Assembly (NCBI GenBank): GCA_002928515.1
Contig: PERI01000001.1
Span: 248,001 to 312,000 of the forward strand
Reading direction: 5' to 3'
DNA from: Hyphomicrobium sp.
GTDB lineage: Bacteria; Pseudomonadota; Alphaproteobacteria; Rhizobiales; Hyphomicrobiaceae
Length of the DNA: 64,000 nucleotides
Shown here one piece after another: positions 29,303 through 36,592 of this stretch (positions within the stretch are counted from its first letter, which is position 1; each line of letters begins with the position of its first letter). The notes below the pieces were generated by a model. The model did no database searches. It worked only from the letters and a program-made list of their open reading frames with translations, and had not been told where the DNA came from. Position numbers and translations under genes: made by a program.

Positions 29303-30049
29303 TCAATGCGCTGGCATTTCGATGGGCTTGGCGCCGGGAAGTTTGGGACGCTCGGAGCCAGCTATCCGACCATCATCGATGCGAATGATGCGATCGGCAA
29401 ATTGCAACGTGCGATGGTCATGCGTAACGGCCAAGACTGCACGATTGGTGTCCTGCGCAACTTTGGCCAGCAGCTCCATGACGGCCATGCCGTTTTGCGC
29501 ATCGAGTGCTGCTGTCGGTTCGTCGGCTAGGATGACGGAAGGTGAGCCAGCGAGTGCGCGAGCGATGGCGACGCGTTGTTTTTCGCCGCCCGACATTTTC
29601 GATGGACTGGCTTCGATGCGATGGCCGAGGCCAACAGCTTCGAGCGCCTCAGCGGCATTGTCGTAGGCGTCGGGTCCGCTTTGATCGCGCAAGTCGAGCG
29701 CCAACATCACGTTTTCGACGGCGGTGAGCGTGGGCACAAGATTGTAGCCCTGGAAAATGAAGCCCACGTGCTTGCGGCGCAAGTTTGCCAAGCCTTCGGC
29801 GTTGAGGTTTTTGGTTGGATGACCAGCGACGGTCAGACGTCCTTCGGTCGGTGTGAGGATACAGCCGAGGATGGACAGCAGGGTGGTTTTGCCGGAGCCT
29901 GACGGACCCATCATCAGCGTGAGTTCACCAGTGTGGAGTTGGAGGTCAATATTCTTGAGCACGCGCACCTCATTGGGTGCAGAGCCCAAAACTTTGACGA
30001 TCCCCTGGGCTTCCAGGATGACTTTGCTGTTGGCTGGCTGCGACATCAC
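29303..30049 (-). CDS. devA: ABC exporter ATPase (DevA/LolD-like)
   Basis: A 248-residue ATP-binding subunit. Walker A GPSGSGKTT (about residues 49-57), Q-loop FIFQGYNLVP, signature MSGGEKQRVAIARAL and Walker B VILADEPTAALD are intact. It is the second gene after the permease (30119-31333) on the minus strand. The MFS-type adaptor at 34855-35958 completes a DevBCA-like exporter. Such systems move glycolipids or lipophilic compounds across the envelope. The DevA name is given by set composition, since many MacB-type systems look alike. Confidence 0.85.
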   Translation of the reverse strand: MMSQPANSKVILEAQGIVKVLGSAPNEVRVLKNIDLQLHTGELTLMMGPSGSGKTTLLSILGCILTPTEGRLTVAGHPTKNLNAEGLANLRRKHVGFIFQGYNLVPTLTAVENVMLALDLRDQSGPDAYDNAAEALEAVGLGHRIEASPSKMSGGEKQRVAIARALAGSPSVILADEPTAALDAQNGMAVMELLAKVAQDTNRAVLAVTHDHRTLQFADRIIRIDDGRIAGSERPKLPGAKPIEMPAH

Positions 30050-30118: not shown

Positions 30119-31333
30119 CTAGCGACTGAACACGACAGCCGGATCGATGCGTACCACTTTGACGATGGCGCTGATGGCCGCAAAAATACACATGCCAATT
30201 GTGATCGCGAATAGCGATACGGCGAGTTCAGGCGTCATCACGATGGTCAACTTCGTATCTTGCGCAGCGGAGATGACGCCGAGGCTGAGGAGAAATCCGA
30301 GGCCAAAGCCGATCAATCCCGATAGAACTGCTTGCAATAAAATGACCTTCACGATGTAGCCAGCGCCCGCTCCGAGCGCGCGCAAGGTTGCGAATTCGTT
30401 TATGTGGTCTTTGGTACTCGAATAGAGCGTTTGCGCAACAATGACGATGCCAACGATGAGGCCGAGCACCGCACCGGCGATGAGGGCTGCGCCTGCACCA
30501 GTTTGGAATAGCCAGTAGCCTTGGCTGCGCTTGCGGAATTCGTTCTGAGTTAGAACTTCGGCGTCGGGCAAGCGTTTCGTAATCTCGGCGCGCACGGTTT
30601 CGAGGTCGGCGCCGGGCGCCAGTTTGATGCGCTCGTAGGTCGCTTGATTTTGCAATGTACCTGTCAGCCTGCGCGCTTCCTCGATGTTTGTGAATACAAA
30701 CGGCAGCGTTGTGAATGAGCGGATGCGTTTGGTCGTGGCTGCGATTTCTACATTCACACCATTGATTTCAGCATTATCGTTCACAGCCGTGATGCCGAGG
30801 TCTGGAAAGTAGCTCTTGTCGATGGCGACTGTGTTGGGTGCCTCTAGCGCTTTGCGGCTACCCTCTTCGATGTTCCAAGGCAGCGGCGCGTCGCTGATCG
30901 GTTCAGACCCAATCAGGAGAACAGTTGTTGTGCCGCCTTCGGGTTTGCGCCAGCGGGCAAACGACACAACCATATCTTCGGCTGAAGCAACGCCTGGCAC
31001 CGACAGCGCCATGTGTCGTTCGCGGCCTGAGAGCGGCGATGGGTCGTCATAGCTTTTCGTGCCAAGTGGCACGATCCACAGATCGGCCGGGGCTTGATCT
31101 AGGATCGCCGCGATTTTCTTTTCGGATCCAAGGTAGATGCCGCACTGAATGGCAACCAAGACAACCGAGAACACGATGCCGACAATCGTGACCATGAAGC
31201 TCAAGCGGTCATGGAACAAATTGCGGTACGCCAGTTTGACCACCATTGGGACGCGACGCTTAGGTGCCCGAGGACGCTGCGCTGGTCGCGATGCTGCTTT
31301 GGCTTGAACGGGGCTGTTGAGAGCGATGTCCAT
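30119..31333 (-). CDS. devC: ABC exporter permease, FtsX/DevC-like
   Basis: A 404-residue permease with an N-terminal transmembrane helix (about residues 45-68), a large periplasmic domain and three more helices in the C-terminal third (LIAGAVLGLIVGIVIVAQT and beyond). This is the FtsX/MacB-type topology. It is followed by the ATPase gene after 69 bases, so the two form one operon. The C-terminal motif EFATLRALGA is family-typical. Confidence 0.87.
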   Translation of the reverse strand: MDIALNSPVQAKAASRPAQRPRAPKRRVPMVVKLAYRNLFHDRLSFMVTIVGIVFSVVLVAIQCGIYLGSEKKIAAILDQAPADLWIVPLGTKSYDDPSPLSGRERHMALSVPGVASAEDMVVSFARWRKPEGGTTTVLLIGSEPISDAPLPWNIEEGSRKALEAPNTVAIDKSYFPDLGITAVNDNAEINGVNVEIAATTKRIRSFTTLPFVFTNIEEARRLTGTLQNQATYERIKLAPGADLETVRAEITKRLPDAEVLTQNEFRKRSQGYWLFQTGAGAALIAGAVLGLIVGIVIVAQTLYSSTKDHINEFATLRALGAGAGYIVKVILLQAVLSGLIGFGLGFLLSLGVISAAQDTKLTIVMTPELAVSLFAITIGMCIFAAISAIVKVVRIDPAVVFSR

Positions 31334-31454: not shown

Positions 31455-32078
31455 TCACTCGCAAGGTACGTCGATCAATCCAGCGATGGCAGCCGAGAAC
31501 TTGCGGCAGACGCGCTTTGCGGTTTCTTTGGTCGAGGCCTTTGTTTCAACTTTTTCAACTTCAACCGCTTTTTCGACCTTCGGAGCATCGACGGCAGCCG
31601 TGTTGTTGAGGGCTGGATCAGGCTCGGTGGCGATGGCGACTTTGCGCACCGTATCTGTTTCCGTTTGTGTCGTTTCAACAACCTGGGTCACTGGCGTTGC
31701 CGGAACCGTAATTGCGGGCACGACATCTGACTTGATCGATTTGCTTTCGACTTTGGCCGTCTTGATGGTGGCCTGCTTAGCGGCGGCTTGTTTCGCTGCA
31801 GCCTGCTGCTTTGCGGCTTTACGAGCACGCTGTTGAGCTTCGGCATATTCAGCCTTGGCGGCTGCGCGTTTGGCCTGGCGGGCCGCAGCGGCGGCTTCAT
31901 TGTGGTGGCGTCTGGCTTTGTAGCTCGGTGCTGCATCGTAAGACTGATGCGGACGCGCGACGAATGAGCCGAGTGGGAAACCAAAGCCAACACGGATGCC
32001 ACCGGCATCTGCCGTCGTGGTGAATGTTGAGCCGGCGATCAGAGCGGCGGCGGCGATGGTGAGAGCTGTCTTGGTCAT
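31455..32078 (-). CDS. Secreted Lys/Ala-rich protein, unknown
   Basis: A 207-residue exported protein with a Sec signal (MTKTALTIAAAALIAGSTFTTTADA). The middle (about residues 60-115) is an Ala/Lys/Gln-rich, probably helical, stretch, followed by a Val/Thr/Pro-rich part. It ends CRKFSAAIAGLIDVPCE, a Cys-bracketed C-terminal motif that I associate with secreted proteins of Hyphomicrobiales. AAGGAGG lies about 8 bases before the start. One of the four 18-bp palindromes is about 110 bases upstream. Function unknown; low-complexity composition means homology searches may mislead. Confidence 0.8.
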   Translation of the reverse strand: MTKTALTIAAAALIAGSTFTTTADAGGIRVGFGFPLGSFVARPHQSYDAAPSYKARRHHNEAAAAARQAKRAAAKAEYAEAQQRARKAAKQQAAAKQAAAKQATIKTAKVESKSIKSDVVPAITVPATPVTQVVETTQTETDTVRKVAIATEPDPALNNTAAVDAPKVEKAVEVEKVETKASTKETAKRVCRKFSAAIAGLIDVPCE

Positions 32079-32187
32079 GGGAGCCTCCTTGAGGGCTGGG
32101 TTTCAGAGCGGGTTTCGTTTGAGCCTAGATTTCAGCGCCGGCCTAACCGGCTATGAAGAGGAGAATGCCTGACACTTGGTTGGGTCG

Positions 32188-32205
32188 CTGTTCCAACCGG
32201 AACAG
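32188..32205. promoter_or_regulatory. Palindromic operator candidate, copy 1
   Basis: CTGTTCC-AACC-GGAACAG, perfect 7-bp arms with a 4-base spacer. It is about 110 bases upstream of the start of the secreted protein gene (32078, minus strand). The same motif occurs at 33967, 36047 and 36575. Confidence 0.65.
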
Positions 32206-32263
32206 TTCAAACGGCGGGCCTAGTTTTTTAATTTTTCCCATAATTATCAATTGACTAACGATG

Positions 32264-33127
32264 TTAGGCCGCTACTGCACGGCGCTTGCTGATCTCTTGG
32301 ACAGCGTTCCTGCCAAGCTGAGCGCTCAAATTTTCTGCAAACTTGGCGATGGCTTCCACCACGAGGTGCCGCTGCCGGTCGACGGTGATGATGTGATAGC
32401 AATCGTCCAGTACCACGAGGTCAACGGGGCCTTTGAGCTCGTCGCGGAGGTAGGTGGCATTGCTGATTGCTGCGTAGTCGTCCTCCAACGGGTGAACGAT
32501 GAGACTTGGCTGGGTGACGTTGGGCATCAGTTTGCGAACTGCTTTGACCAATTTTCCATGCTCATACACGGCACCGCCTGGCGTGACGGGGTGGCCTGTC
32601 TCGGAAGCTCCGCGCGAACTGCGGGCTTTCTGAATGAAATCCCGAATGCGGCTGTCTTTGATGCCGTGGGGGTCGTGGTGGGGAAACGAGAACAGGTTGG
32701 CAATCGACTTCTGGCCCACGAAGCGGAACAGTTTTGCGTACCACGGGATCATCCAGCCGTTGAGCCATAGCGTTGGCGCCAGCAGCGCCGTGGCTTGAAC
32801 TTTATCTGGGTTTTTGGCTGCCAGCATGACGGCAAGGACTGCGCCGGTCGACAGACCGCCTGCGATAACGACGTCGCAATCTTGTCGCAAATCTGCGAGT
32901 GCTTGTTCTGCGCTGCGATACCAGTCGGCCCATGATGATGCTGTGATGTCCTGTGTGCTACCGCAATGTCCGGCGAGCTGCGGGCACGAAACTGTGTAGC
33001 CGAGCTTGGCAAGTCCATTAGCAACGAAGCGCATTTCAACCGGTGTGCCGCACAAGCGATGCAGCAGCAGTATGCCGATTTTTCCGCCCTTGATTGTGAA
33101 GCCTGCGTTCGCAGTGGACTTTGACAT
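32264..33127 (-). CDS. Alpha/beta-hydrolase (carboxylesterase-like)
   Basis: A 287-residue hydrolase resembling the Est30/monoacylglycerol-lipase type esterases. The nucleophile Ser is in GGLSTGA (about residues 94-100), with LLLHRLCGTP at the oxyanion strand, Asp in HPLEDDY and His in DCYHIITVD. HRLCGT replaces the more common HGFTGT, so the oxyanion region is slightly unusual. The ATG at 33127 has GAGGG upstream; the longer frame to 33214 is less likely. Substrate unknown. Confidence 0.87.
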   Translation of the reverse strand: MSKSTANAGFTIKGGKIGILLLHRLCGTPVEMRFVANGLAKLGYTVSCPQLAGHCGSTQDITASSWADWYRSAEQALADLRQDCDVVIAGGLSTGAVLAVMLAAKNPDKVQATALLAPTLWLNGWMIPWYAKLFRFVGQKSIANLFSFPHHDPHGIKDSRIRDFIQKARSSRGASETGHPVTPGGAVYEHGKLVKAVRKLMPNVTQPSLIVHPLEDDYAAISNATYLRDELKGPVDLVVLDDCYHIITVDRQRHLVVEAIAKFAENLSAQLGRNAVQEISKRRAVAA

Positions 33128-33220
33128 GACGCCCTCGGGTGTTGAATTGCGTATGGTTGACAGGCTTAAGTTTGAAAGCGGTGTTGTGCAGTTCCGCGCG
33201 ATACAGGCGCGCATCCGTGA

Positions 33221-33643
33221 TTAAGCTGCGAGCGGGAGTTGTGTGTCATACGTGTTGCGCGCGATACCCCTGGCTGGAGCTATATCGAGTGCAGCAACGA
33301 AGCGTTGGGCGCTAAATCCGTAGTTGGTATTCAAGCGCTGGGTTGCGGCGTGAGCGATCGCCATTGCGATCAATTTGAAGCCGCGACGCAGGAGGAGATT
33401 TTTCAAGCGGCGCGCGCCGAACACGTGGAGCAATGCTCGAAAGCGCAGAGAGACTGCGAGACGAAGCTCAGGTTGATCTGCGAAACCGGCCCAAATTTCG
33501 CTGTCGAGATCGCGTAGATCGTGGTCACTTAGGCCGTTAAGCAGTGCGAGGCCACGCCCTTGCGCGATCAGGTGGCGCATCGGCATGTAAAGATGCTCGG
33601 GCCGTACGGATGGCACGTCGGTAATGTTGAGCGCGGCGGTCAT
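33221..33643 (-). CDS. Hypothetical protein
   Basis: A 140-residue, mostly helical protein with no signal peptide and no motif I recognise. It is rich in Arg, Leu and Ala (ELRLAVSLRFRALLHVFGARRLKNLLLRRGFKLIAMAIAHAA). It lies 26 bases after the small cold-shock-like gene on the same strand, so the pair are likely one operon controlled by the palindrome at 33967. The start at 33643 gives no overlap with that gene; a longer frame to 33700 is possible. Confidence 0.65.
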   Translation of the reverse strand: MTAALNITDVPSVRPEHLYMPMRHLIAQGRGLALLNGLSDHDLRDLDSEIWAGFADQPELRLAVSLRFRALLHVFGARRLKNLLLRRGFKLIAMAIAHAATQRLNTNYGFSAQRFVAALDIAPARGIARNTYDTQLPLAA

Positions 33644-33669
33644 GGCAGCGGTCTCCGGTATTTTGAGGG

Positions 33670-33888
33670 TTAAAGACCAATGCCGCCGAAGGCTGCCCAA
33701 GGCGAACCGGCAAGCACAATGACTTCGCGCGCTTTCAAAGCGGCTGGATCGAAATAGACTTCCAAGCCTTCGAGATCGTCGCGGCGATTGAGGATGGCGG
33801 TGCGTTCGAAGCGATACTTGCGACCGTCTTCGGCTTTGATGACGCCGACACCGAGGTCGCGCCGGAACTTGGTAATTTCACCGTACAT
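33670..33888 (-). CDS. Small cold-shock-like (OB-fold) protein
   Basis: A 72-residue protein beginning MYGEITKFRRDLGVGVIKAEDGRKYRF. This resembles the opening of cold-shock domains (GxIKxFxxxxGxGxIxxxDGxxxxF), but the RNP motifs are weak and the second half diverges. It may bind nucleic acid. AGGAG lies about 6 bases before the start. It is the first of a two-gene unit, with palindrome copy 2 some 80 bases upstream. Confidence 0.75.
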   Translation of the reverse strand: MYGEITKFRRDLGVGVIKAEDGRKYRFERTAILNRRDDLEGLEVYFDPAALKAREVIVLAGSPWAAFGGIGL

Positions 33889-33966
33889 GGGGCTCTCCTG
33901 TGCAAGACTGATTTAGGGACGTTCTACCGTCCGTCGCTGCACCATGGAGGAAGGTTCAAATGCCCG

Positions 33967-33984
33967 CTGTTCCGAGTGAAACAG
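33967..33984. promoter_or_regulatory. Palindromic operator candidate, copy 2
   Basis: CTGTTCC-GAGT-GAAACAG: one mismatch from the consensus. It is in front of the cold-shock-like gene (start 33888) and also between it and the divergent creA gene (34132). A T-run after it on the plus strand could instead mimic a terminator, but no plus-strand gene is upstream. Confidence 0.6.
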
Positions 33985-34131
33985 GCCTTTTTTAATGGGA
34001 TTTCGATGAGAAATTATTTTTGCGCGATTCACCAAATTGGATTGCGCACCCGTTGCGATATCCCATATGCAGCGCAGGCTCGATGGAGCTTCAGCTAAGC
34101 GATTTCACATCAAACGACAGGAAGACATGAG

Positions 34132-34653
34132 ATGACGATCAACTGGCGTCGGGGACTGCTTGGAATGGGTGCGGCGCTTCTATCGGTGCTTCCGACGGTC
34201 GCCAATGCCGACAATCCAGATTTGATTTTCAAGAAAACGACGGTGTGGAAATTCTTATCGCCCGACAGCAAAATCGGTACTTACGGTCTCGATGATCCGG
34301 AAGTCGAGGGCGTTGCTTGCCACTTCAGCGTTCCGGAAGTCGGGGGATGGAAAGGCTGGCTTGGTCTAGCTGAAGAGCTTTCGCAAGCCTCGCTGTCGTG
34401 TCGCCAATATGGGCCCATCAAGTTCAAGCGCAAACTTGAGCAGGGCGAAGAAATGTTCAGCCAGCGTAGGTCGTTTTTCTTCAAGCGCATGCAGATCGTT
34501 CGTGGCTGTGATGCCAAGCGCAACATGCTTGTTTATCTCGTTTACACTGACAAGTTGATTGAAGGCAGTCCTGAAAATTCGACGTCGAATGTGTCGATTG
34601 CGCCTTGGGGAAATGATGTTCCCGTCAAATGTTCCGAGTGGATTACCGATTAA
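34132..34653 (+). CDS. creA: CreA family protein, exported
   Basis: A 173-residue protein of the CreA family, which is periplasmic in related bacteria and has no known activity. A Sec signal (LLGMGAALLSVLPTVANA) is followed by the conserved VACHFS and ASLSCRQYGPI with Cys pairs, then QRRSFFFKRMQIVRGCD. AGGA lies about 13 bases before the ATG. It is single and followed by a strong hairpin. Confidence 0.92.
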   Translation: MTINWRRGLLGMGAALLSVLPTVANADNPDLIFKKTTVWKFLSPDSKIGTYGLDDPEVEGVACHFSVPEVGGWKGWLGLAEELSQASLSCRQYGPIKFKRKLEQGEEMFSQRRSFFFKRMQIVRGCDAKRNMLVYLVYTDKLIEGSPENSTSNVSIAPWGNDVPVKCSEWITD

Positions 34654-34693
34654 TCGCGTGAGAATCCTCACAGTCATTGTTTTTGAAAGAATT

Positions 34694-34722
34694 AAACCGC
34701 GCGGGAATTGCCCGCGCGGTTT
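34694..34722. terminator. Hairpin after creA
   Basis: AAACCGCGCGGG-aattg-CCCGCGCGGTTT, perfect 12-bp arms. It lies 41 bases after the creA stop and before the convergent adaptor gene. The A-run on one side and T-run on the other suggest a bidirectional terminator. Confidence 0.85.
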
Positions 34723-34854
34723 CAAGTTTTGATGACGTGAATTAGATGTCGTTGGCTGTTATTCGATCTTTAAGACGGTCGCCGCACGCCTATGGTGCAA
34801 CACTACCGCGAGCATCTTGATGACTTGTCCTCGCGTATGCGGTGGACGGTGCAT

Positions 34855-35958
34855 TCAGTCGGTCTTCTCGAAGAATGCATCGGCGCGCATGCCAGGCAGT
34901 AATGGAACGCTTCCATCGAGATCGATGGTCACTTCCAACACTTCTACGTCGGTCGGGCGACGCGCGCCACGCAGTGCAAACTTCGGTGAGCCAAGGCTTG
35001 GCGCAAGTTCTGTCACTTTGCCGGAAAATTCGCGGTCTGGATAAGCATTGCTTTTGACTTTGACTTTGCCGCCGACTTTGATTTTCGAGACGTCATGCTC
35101 ATCGACTTCGGCTTTGAGCCGGACCACAGACATATCACCGATGACGACCATGGCCTGCTCGGGAGATGGCGCAACCATCTCGCCGACTTTAGCGGGCAGT
35201 TGCAAAATGGTGCCGGCAACTGGCGCCCGAATGCGGGTTTTTTCTAGCACGGCTTCTGCCACAGCGACGTCGGAACGGGCAGCTTGTAGTGCCGACTCCA
35301 ATCGGCTTGGCGCTGGCACGTCCGATTTAGCTTGTGCGATTGCGTAAGCGGCACGCTCCTTTTGAAGCTTTTCTTTGGCGATAGTGGCACCTTTGCGTGC
35401 CTCGGACACGCGCTCATCGGAGCCTGAGCCATTGCGTTTTGCTTGCAGTTCGTATTCCAGCTCAAATCTGGCGTTGGTCAAAGCGCGTTCGGCGCTGAAC
35501 ACGTTGTCTTCTGCCTTGCGTAAATCTTCGCGTCCGCGTTCTGCAGATTGCGCATCGCGTTCGCGTTTGCGCGAGGCTGCTTCGGTTTCGGCTGCTTGCA
35601 AGCGCGCGCGTGCTTCTTCGTCATCGAGACGAATGAGAAGCTCGCCTTCCTCGACTAGGTCGTTCAGTTTTACCGTGACTTCGGCGATGCGTCCCAGGAG
35701 TTGCGCGCCCACACGAACCAGGCCTGTGCGCGGTTCGATGCGACCGGGCGCGGCAGCCAGCCAATCAATTTTTTCGGTTTCTGTGACGGCGTCCGCTTTA
35801 GCGGTTTCTTCTGCCACAACTGTGGACGTTGAAATTTCATCACCGTTCATGACCATGCTGCCCAGTGCTCCGAGAGCTACGGCCATGACCACCAGCAGTC
35901 CCGTTCTCAAATCCAGCCAGCTAGATTTTCCGCTACCATTCGAACTTTCCGTGCTCAT
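34855..35958 (-). CDS. devB: ABC-exporter membrane-fusion protein (HlyD/DevB-like)
   Basis: A 367-residue periplasmic adaptor with an N-terminal membrane anchor (LRTGLLVVMAVALGALGS). A biotinyl-lipoyl half-site (RIEPRTGLVRVGAQLLGRIAEVTVKLNDLVEEGELLIRLD), a long coiled-coil (about residues 100-215) and the second lipoyl half (APVAGTILQLPAKVGEMV) follow in HlyD order. The ATG at 35958 has AGGAGA 6 bases upstream. Palindrome copy 3 lies about 90 bases upstream and touches the -35 region of a promoter with a perfect TATAAT. The ATPase and permease genes are 3.5 kb downstream. Confidence 0.88.
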   Translation of the reverse strand: MSTESSNGSGKSSWLDLRTGLLVVMAVALGALGSMVMNGDEISTSTVVAEETAKADAVTETEKIDWLAAAPGRIEPRTGLVRVGAQLLGRIAEVTVKLNDLVEEGELLIRLDDEEARARLQAAETEAASRKRERDAQSAERGREDLRKAEDNVFSAERALTNARFELEYELQAKRNGSGSDERVSEARKGATIAKEKLQKERAAYAIAQAKSDVPAPSRLESALQAARSDVAVAEAVLEKTRIRAPVAGTILQLPAKVGEMVAPSPEQAMVVIGDMSVVRLKAEVDEHDVSKIKVGGKVKVKSNAYPDREFSGKVTELAPSLGSPKFALRGARRPTDVEVLEVTIDLDGSVPLLPGMRADAFFEKTD

Positions 35959-36029
35959 TGTGATTCTCCTAAATGTGCTGCGCTGAAAGAAACTACAAAG
36001 CTCTCTCAGCATCACGAGCATCGCTAGCC

Positions 36030-36035
36030 ATTATA
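36030..36035 (-). promoter_or_regulatory. -10 box of the devB promoter
   Basis: On the minus strand this reads TATAAT, the perfect sigma-70-type -10 box. It is 11 bases downstream of the palindrome at 36047-36064, which would put that palindrome over the -35 region, near position -32. The arrangement suggests the palindrome is a repressor site, or an activator site replacing the -35 box. Confidence 0.6.
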
Positions 36036-36046
36036 TTCGGAATTTT

Positions 36047-36064
36047 CTGTTTCAAGCGGAACAG
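36047..36064. promoter_or_regulatory. Palindromic operator candidate, copy 3
   Basis: CTGTTTC-AAGC-GGAACAG, one mismatch from a perfect inverted repeat. It is about 90 bases upstream of the devB start, next to a TATAAT box on the minus strand. Confidence 0.65.
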
Positions 36065-36145
36065 GCCGGACTGTACTTTACTTTGTTAGATTACGTTTTT
36101 TGTTTTTGATAGCAGGTATTTGTGACGTGCAGCTCAGCAACGAGA

Positions 36146-36170
36146 AAGGCCCCGGTTGGTCCGGAGCCTT
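36146..36170 (-). terminator. Hairpin after the small Cys-rich gene
   Basis: AAGGC-c-CCGG / CCGG-a-GCCTT with a 5-base loop, 56 bases after the stop at 36226 on the minus strand and followed there by a short T-run (TTTCTC). It is a plausible terminator. Confidence 0.55.
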
Positions 36171-36225
36171 CATGTGTCGTCGGAGTGGGGTCGTCGGTTC
36201 AAACGGCTTTGGATGCTTGTAGCGC

Positions 36226-36498
36226 CTAGTGGCACATTTCTCGGAGTGTCCATCCGACGATTTTGCACTTCTCGCCGCGGCTGGTCATGACGCACTTGCG
36301 CTCTGGCAGACGCTGGTAATCACAATAATAGTTGCCTGCGTGTCCGGAGTAGCCATGCATGGGCTTCTTGAAGCGATAGTCTTGAACGAAAACTTCTTTG
36401 CCATCGCCTGCGAATGCCGAGGCGGTCGAGATGGCGGTTGCTCCAGCAACGGCTGCAAATGCTGCGATCAATGCGAACATTTTGGATGTCGTGGTCAT
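36226..36498 (-). CDS. Small secreted Cys-rich protein, unknown
   Basis: A 90-residue exported protein with a Sec leader (MFALIAAFAAVAGATAISTASAFA) and a short mature part with at least four Cys residues (YYCDYQRLPERKC...GEKCKIVGWTLREMC), probably disulfide-bonded. AAGGAGG lies just before the ATG at 36498, deciding the start against the longer frame to 36594. Palindrome copy 4 is 77-94 bases upstream. I know no characterised homologue. Confidence 0.8.
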   Translation of the reverse strand: MTTTSKMFALIAAFAAVAGATAISTASAFAGDGKEVFVQDYRFKKPMHGYSGHAGNYYCDYQRLPERKCVMTSRGEKCKIVGWTLREMCH

Positions 36499-36574
36499 TG
36501 GTGGTCCTCCTTGAGAAGGCTGCACTTGTGAGCCTTGGTTATGGAGACACTTTAGCGACGTTAGCAACTTGGCT

Positions 36575-36592
36575 CTGTTCCAAATGGAACAC
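36575..36592. promoter_or_regulatory. Palindromic operator candidate, copy 4
   Basis: CTGTTCC-AAAT-GGAACAC, one mismatch at the outer base. It is in front of the small Cys-rich gene (start 36498). With copies at 32188, 33967 and 36047 it forms the CTGTTYC-N4-GRAACAG set. Confidence 0.65.

Follow-up and report, generated by a model that had tools for sequence, protein, structure and literature searches.

The characterised member of the regulator type considered here is Clr (SMc02175) of the plant symbiont S. meliloti, a cluster G CRP that is activated by cAMP or cGMP and recognizes a box with the core GTNNCNNNNGNNAC and the consensus HGTYHCNNNNGRWACA (PMC10127613, PMC5498481). In the Clr-DNA crystal structure, DNA contacts were reported for Q184, S194, R195, K197 and N199 (also L152) and R200 makes no DNA contact; the cNMP is contacted by G85, E86, R95 and S96. 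The clr gene lies near a class III cyclase gene, and many of the targets are hypothetical or exported proteins (PMC10127613, PMC5498481). The known functions of Clr are confined to early symbiosis, and whether cluster G proteins in general respond to cGMP, cAMP or both was raised as a question (PMC10127613). CgrA of Rhodospirillum centenum, which responds to cGMP, belongs to the same Crp cluster and is likewise cyclase-linked, but it uses the E. coli-like TGTGA-N6-TCACA (PMC4681086). Nothing relevant on Clr/CRP sites in Hyphomicrobium or on MASE7 cyclases was found in the open-licence literature.

The stretch of 64 kb from Hyphomicrobium sp. that was analysed here (the window) carries palindromes of the form CTGTTYC-N4-GRAACAG, which match both the core and the consensus of the S. 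meliloti box and do not correspond to the CgrA-type palindrome. Judged from sequence, they are very probably the sites of a Clr-type cAMP-sensing activator that drives an exporter and small envelope proteins from promoters of fixed layout in Hyphomicrobium-like bacteria. The likeness to S. meliloti Clr concerns the site core, the DNA- and cNMP-contact residues, the cyclase gene near clr and the hypothetical or exported targets. The two differ in that Clr of S. meliloti has symbiosis and succinoglycan genes among its targets, whereas the main targets here would be a DevBCA-like exporter and small secreted proteins.

Palindromes in the window and the genes behind them

It had been proposed in the original prediction that the palindrome occurs at 32188, 33967, 36047 and 36575 and nowhere else in the window. 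All four copies are present, the first three without mismatch and that at 36575 with one, and no further copy with 0-1 mismatch was found. With a scoring model built from other genomes only, the own genome being left out, they are the four top-scoring sites of the window. However, the count was incomplete, as the same model revealed a fifth, degenerate and conserved site at 33189-33206 before an alpha/beta-hydrolase gene. This site has 2 mismatches to the 18-mer and matches the Clr core exactly; the core is matched by all five sites.

32188..32205, minus strand: predicted Clr-type site 1, exact 18-mer, 33.2 bits; before the Lys/Ala-rich secreted protein gene, devC and devA
33189..33206, minus strand: predicted fifth Clr-type site (hydrolase site), 13.9 bits, core GTNNCNNNNGNNAC exact; before the alpha/beta-hydrolase gene
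33967..33984, minus strand: predicted Clr-type site 3, exact, 31.8 bits; before the cold-shock-like gene and orf141
36047..36064, minus strand: predicted Clr-type site 4, exact, 20.2 bits; before devB
36575..36592, minus strand: predicted Clr-type site 5, one mismatch, 24.8 bits; before the small Cys-rich secreted protein gene

With up to 2 mismatches the window holds 5 matches, compared with a mean of 0.68 in dinucleotide shuffles, and 0 of 100 shuffles reached 5. Exact copies number only 5 in the 2.92-Mb genome, 3 of them in the window, and the reversed control pattern occurs once. Neither of the outcomes named beforehand as refuting, a frequency equal to chance or absence before the orthologues of close relatives, was observed. 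The distance from site to gene had been put at 80-130 bases; measured to the start codon it is 73-109 bp (Lys/Ala-rich protein 109, cold-shock-like protein 78, devB 85 and Cys-rich protein 73), close to that estimate.

36226..36501, minus strand: small Cys-containing secreted protein, 91 aa; no family
34855..35961, minus strand: devB-like membrane-fusion (adaptor) subunit, HlyD family; TIGR02971 DevB 5.4e-25, below cut-off
33670..33888, minus strand: cold-shock-like protein, 72 aa; likeness seen by eye in the original prediction, no family match
33221..33646, minus strand: orf141, second gene of the cold-shock-like unit, without its own site
32264..33127, minus strand: alpha/beta hydrolase, PF12146 4.7e-16; start at 33127 set by orthologue comparison
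31455..32078, minus strand: Lys/Ala-rich secreted protein; no family
30119..31333, minus strand: devC-like FtsX/MacB permease, TIGR01185 1.1e-44, below cut-off
29303..30049, minus strand: devA-like ABC ATPase, TIGR02982 1.7e-70, below cut-off

The adaptor, the permease and the ATPase each match the DevB, DevC and DevA models of the heterocyst glycolipid exporter family, but all three score under the curated cut-offs (DevA 237.1 against 295.8 bits, DevB 88.5 against 129, DevC 153 against 290.35), and devB is separate from devCA here. A scan with DevB across a collection of genome contigs gave only 9 loci. An exporter and small secreted proteins behind the sites bear out the view that most of the targets are envelope-related.

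Promoter layout and conservation of the sites

At class II promoters of E. coli CRP the site is centred at about -41.5, in place of the -35 element, and is followed by the -10 hexamer. A comparable arrangement of site centre and -10 hexamer is predicted here. In 82 of 103 promoters a hexamer YANNNT begins 21 bp past the site, and an A is found at offset 22 in 96% of the sites. Because the hexamer begins at this distance, the dyad centre would lie at about -41.5. This suggests class II CRP-type activation, an assignment that concerns spacing and was derived from the very sites described, in four promoter groups of related genomes. The layout is a single rigid one, whereas CBS-TSS distances in S. 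meliloti range from -42 to -76. E. coli CRP differs in its recognition helix, RE(T/M)VGR as against SRPKVN here, and in its half-site, TGTGA as against CTGTTCC.

32162..32167, minus strand: predicted -10 hexamer CATTCT of site 1, class II spacing
33163..33168, minus strand: predicted -10 hexamer TAAGCC of the fifth site, hydrolase promoter
33941..33946, minus strand: predicted -10 hexamer CATGGT of site 3
36021..36026, minus strand: predicted -10 hexamer TAGCGA of site 4 (devB), class II spacing
36549..36554, minus strand: predicted -10 hexamer TAAAGT of site 5

There is indeed a TATAAT beside the devB site, as noticed earlier (36030-36035), but the -10 whose conserved position agrees with the spacing of the other promoters is the hexamer 9 bp further down, at 36021-36026; both positions recur among devB orthologues. 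Genome-wide, site and spacing combined (up to 1 mismatch) gave 16 matches and the reversed control 0.

Conservation before the same genes in several genera, named beforehand as support, was observed: sites recur throughout this genus and in part of the genera outside it. The relatives of the genome are Hyphomicrobium MAGs. Among 22 same-genus genomes, sites with up to 2 mismatches precede the devB orthologue in 21/22 cases, the Cys-rich one in 20/22, the cold-shock-like one in 18/21 and LysAla-devC in 22/22; permuted patterns before the same orthologues gave about 0. The core GTNNCNNNNGNNAC is kept in 104 of the 115 best sites of orthologous upstream regions, that of site 3 in 27/27 cold-shock-like orthologues and that of site 5 in 26/28 Cys-rich orthologues. 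The hydrolase site was present 53-66 bp from the start at all 14 loci compared, of which three are duplicate entries for identical or almost identical loci. No site was found upstream of orf141, which served as an internal negative control, and most devB orthologues from outside the genus have none either. Among 298 genomes of the order, the promoter pattern accompanies Clr: in counts that ignore phylogenetic relatedness, the pattern occurs in 28/34 genomes with Clr and 37/264 without, and outside the family in 16/20 and 37/263, respectively.

The Clr-type regulator and the neighbouring cyclase gene

The comparison of the palindrome with Crp/Fnr-type sites is supported, the specific kind of Crp protein being Clr. 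Three Crp-type genes were found in the genome, and among proteins of solved structure the product of one of them is closest to S. meliloti Clr (7pza, E 7.2e-49, against 5.9e-30 for the runner-up). This protein carries PF00027 and PF13545, its kinship to Clr spans both domains, and it is the single Clr-type protein of the genome (236 aa, contig C5). Residues Q184, S194, R195, K197 and N199 are identical in 32/32 homologues examined, as are G85, E86 and R95. S96 is S in 24, the own genome included, and T in 8; L152 is replaced by Ile and R200 by Ala in most of these homologues.

Just downstream of clr lies a gene for a class III nucleotide cyclase with a MASE7 domain. It gave the genome's only match to PF00211 and is the one class III cyclase found there, whereas 28 such enzymes are annotated in S. 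meliloti. The cyclase gene lies beside clr in 22/22 same-genus genomes. A regulator linked to the sites had been envisaged; here clr is unlinked, on another contig, but in another genus (G034, locus L284) it lies within the cluster, together with six sites of at least 20 bits in 9.1 kb. None of the 30 regions inspected upstream of clr, those of Hyphomicrobium included, holds a good site; there is therefore no sign of autoregulation, which was dropped.

Predicted circuit, rival readings and further sites

In the circuit that we propose, the membrane-anchored cyclase would make cAMP (or cGMP), and the cNMP would enable a Clr dimer to bind sites centred near -41.5, where it would replace the -35 element. 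Bound Clr would then activate sigma70-type transcription from the YANNNT hexamer 21 bp past the site, as in class II promoters. The cluster in the window would form a five-promoter block (Cys-rich; devB; cold-shock-like and orf141; hydrolase; LysAla, devC and devA), and the remaining members of the regulon, mostly small secreted proteins, would be encoded elsewhere in the genome.

Several dimeric regulators could use the same half-site spacing, and the genome encodes two additional Crp/Fnr-type proteins. Nevertheless, it is very unlikely that the sites serve another factor with a similar palindrome (another Crp/Fnr protein, TetR, LacI or similar), as by inspection those two lack the SRPKVN helix; moreover, the core of the sites, the contact residues and the distribution among taxa all follow Clr, and clr is inside the cluster in G034. 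A LexA site and an ECF/EcfG -35 element (GGAAC) were also considered; these readings were set aside since the palindrome is conserved in its two halves and the -10 lies at the distance typical of a CRP class II promoter. It is hardly credible that the sites are chance repeats, or copies that a mobile or duplicated element has spread, devoid of a regulatory role. A local duplication could yield four copies in 4.4 kb, and paired C7 sites of the own genome precede tandem paralogues, but the sites of the window differ in flanks and genes and have only the site and the -10 in common. Their position is constant across the genus while the spacer bases vary freely, conservation before orthologues contradicts this reading, and shuffles and reversed controls gave none or few.

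Clr might also bind but mainly repress, or at devB toggle two overlapping promoters, one with its -10 hexamer at offset 12 and the other at offset 21. YANNNT stands at offset 12 in 18 sites, by eye those of the devB group, and devB sites mostly keep GAAACAG as against GGAACAG in the others. We consider this unlikely, however, since all four promoter groups share the hexamer at offset 21, which fits class II activation, no properly spaced -35 hexamer was recognised by eye, and S. meliloti Clr acts mainly positively on its direct targets (PMC5498481).

With Clr as the predicted activator, a non-rhizobial genus would offer one receptor, one cyclase (in this genome), a defined promoter set with a single layout, and named targets. 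Since there is one cyclase and one receptor, a non-symbiotic role of Clr could be tested without some 28 redundant cyclases. The sites would also provide a first entry point to the regulation of conserved small secreted proteins and of a DevBCA-like exporter. More tentatively, the Hyphomicrobium circuit may be minimal and complete (one MASE7 cyclase, one Clr and about a dozen rigid class II promoters), its core of an envelope exporter and small periplasmic proteins possibly predating the symbiotic use of Clr in rhizobia.

The original prediction spoke of a local regulon; a regulon with Crp/Fnr-type sites is supported, but it is not merely local, as there are more sites genome-wide. The list, which is not exhaustive, comes from pattern searches and selected stretches of the genome. 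Three of the genome-wide matches, L007 in catalase and L268 and L277 within other reading frames, lie in coding sequence and are probably due to chance. Two more were omitted, L010 because the start follows the site by no more than 19 bp and L009 for want of a clear target. For the second devBC paralogue (C4), no site was found in L278. An ECF sigma factor adjoins the site at C7:71709, but as a neighbour of one target only it was set aside. Other copies precede small secreted-protein genes elsewhere in the genome, and the site at G000:C2:45166 precedes a gene whose product resembles the Lys/Ala-rich secreted protein.

Clr-type sites in the cluster

The original prediction placed the 18-bp palindrome CTGTTYC-N4-GRAACAG at four positions, and it was found at all of them, exactly at 32188, 33967 and 36047 and with one mismatch at 36575. 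Within the window (G000:C1:248001-312000) there were five matches at up to two mismatches, a count that 0/100 dinucleotide shuffles reached. The 2.92-Mb genome contains five exact copies, three of which lie in the 4.4-kb stretch of the cluster; the reversed pattern has one. The window was also scanned with a weight model (site, next two bases and -10) that was trained on other genomes only, excluding the own genome. The four palindromes were the top four (33.2, 31.8, 24.8 and 20.2 bits); next came these palindromes read in reverse and a single place not seen before, whereas the reversed window gave nothing above 6 bits:

33189-33206: fifth Clr-type site, 13.9 bits, 61 bp upstream of the alpha/beta-hydrolase gene start

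This site was kept at 53-66 bp in 14/14 hydrolase loci compared (a few being duplicate records), and the same comparison showed no site upstream of orf141, a neighbouring internal gene. Across the cluster, Cys-rich gene through devA, each minus-strand transcription unit thus carries its own site. On the opposite strand inside the cluster lies a gene for a CreA-family (PF05981) secreted protein (34132-34653, +), which had no site of its own in the weight-model scan.

Conservation and promoter layout

From 30 genomes of the family, orthologues were collected for devB, for the Cys-rich and cold-shock-like genes, and for devC, in front of which lies the LysAla-rich gene. Within the genus, an upstream site differing at no more than two positions was present for devB in 21/22 genomes, for the Cys-rich gene in 20/22, for the cold-shock-like gene in 18/21 and for devC in 22/22; column-permuted control patterns upstream of the same orthologues averaged 0.03-0.13 and never exceeded 2. 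The devC search was extended to 1400 bp upstream, since the LysAla-rich gene intervenes, and for a few genomes the top match lay 55-87 bp before devC itself. Over all genomes, the best sites kept the core GTNNCNNNNGNNAC at devB in 22/30, the Cys-rich gene in 26/28, the cold-shock-like gene in 27/27 and devC in 29/30. Among the family genomes compared, devB orthologues outside the genus mostly lacked an upstream site. The devB relatives that bear names are almost all Hyphomicrobium MAGs.

In 82 of the 103 aligned promoters a YANNNT hexamer starts 21 bp beyond the site, counted from its gene-proximal end; at any other offset it does so in at most 18/103. Its second position is A in 96%, and A is also favoured at offset 33. 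A start about 7 bp downstream of this -10 would centre the dyad on -41.5, as in class II promoters activated by CRP. The second peak, at offset 12, comes by eye from the devB promoters and includes the TATAAT noted originally. There (36021-36035, -) two -10-like hexamers stand 9 bp apart, at offsets 12 and 21, and both recur in orthologues. The devB sites mostly retain a GAAACAG half, whereas the other groups have GGAACAG; together with the double -10 this may indicate an extra layer of control.

The regulator and its cyclase

Three genes of the own genome match the Crp HTH family. The 236-aa product of one of them (L106) has Sinorhizobium meliloti Clr, solved with DNA and cNMP, as its best solved relative (7pza, E 7.2e-49). 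The reported contacts of Clr with DNA (Q184, S194, R195, K197, N199) and nucleotide (G85, E86, R95) (PMC10127613) were identical in 32/32 homologues compared; L152 is Ile. The published consensus HGTYHCNNNNGRWACA with its core GTNNCNNNNGNNAC (PMC10127613, PMC5498481) fits the Hyphomicrobium sites. Next to clr, downstream and on its strand, lies a gene for a MASE7 plus Guanylate_cyc protein (L106:121-1440, -), MASE7 being its sensor domain. It is the sole PF00211 match in the own genome, where no other class III cyclase was found. The pair is present in 22/22 same-genus genomes.

Co-occurrence was scored in 298 genomes of the order with the exact site-plus-spacing pattern and a Clr-like protein at E <= 1e-35. 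The pattern was found in 28/34 genomes with Clr versus 37/264 without (Fisher 7e-16, relatedness not corrected), and outside the family in 16/20 versus 37/263 (Fisher 8e-10, likewise uncorrected). In G034, a genome of another genus, clr lies inside this cluster with six sites of at least 20 bits in 9.1 kb, and in several other families sites occur within about 10 kb of clr.

The DNA itself shows the sites, how they are conserved and spaced, a regulator whose contact residues match, the cyclase gene next to it and the co-occurrence. We propose that the membrane-anchored cyclase would sense a signal and raise cAMP or cGMP; liganded Clr would bind at -41.5 and bring RNA polymerase to the -10, with joint production of the exporter and the small envelope proteins. 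Neither Clr nor class II CRP promoters are new. For Hyphomicrobium, no Clr regulon combining a single cyclase with an exporter/secreted-protein core turned up in the papers searched.

Sites elsewhere in the genome

The predicted regulon has its sites at the cluster but is not only local, as copies with 0-2 mismatches also precede genes for small secreted or membrane proteins in other parts of the genome (gene names by eye).

Genes preceded by further sites
L001: His-rich secreted protein (name by eye)
L008/L266: protein resembling the LysAla-rich one (name by eye)
L011, L012, G000:C7:27864-29408: tandem Cys-rich small secreted protein paralogues, each with its own one-mismatch site
L265: 70-aa membrane protein (name by eye)
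L005, G000:C7:71709: DUF3307-like gene with an ECF sigma factor close by, perfect palindrome CTGTTCCCTAGGGAACAG (names by eye)

The site followed by 20 bp and YANNNT, with at most one mismatch, had 16 genome matches versus 0 for the reversed control; the few within coding sequence were treated as chance. At L005 an ECF-type sigma factor gene and a likely anti-sigma gene come next (by eye). The CTGTTCCCTAGGGAACAG 18-mer or a near copy occurs in many related genomes, upstream of DUF3307-like genes in some and of short-chain dehydrogenases in others. A second devB-devC pair (G000:C4:243934-246858, L278) has no Clr-type site in the own genome; this pair, 47-55% identical, is present there and in most related genomes.
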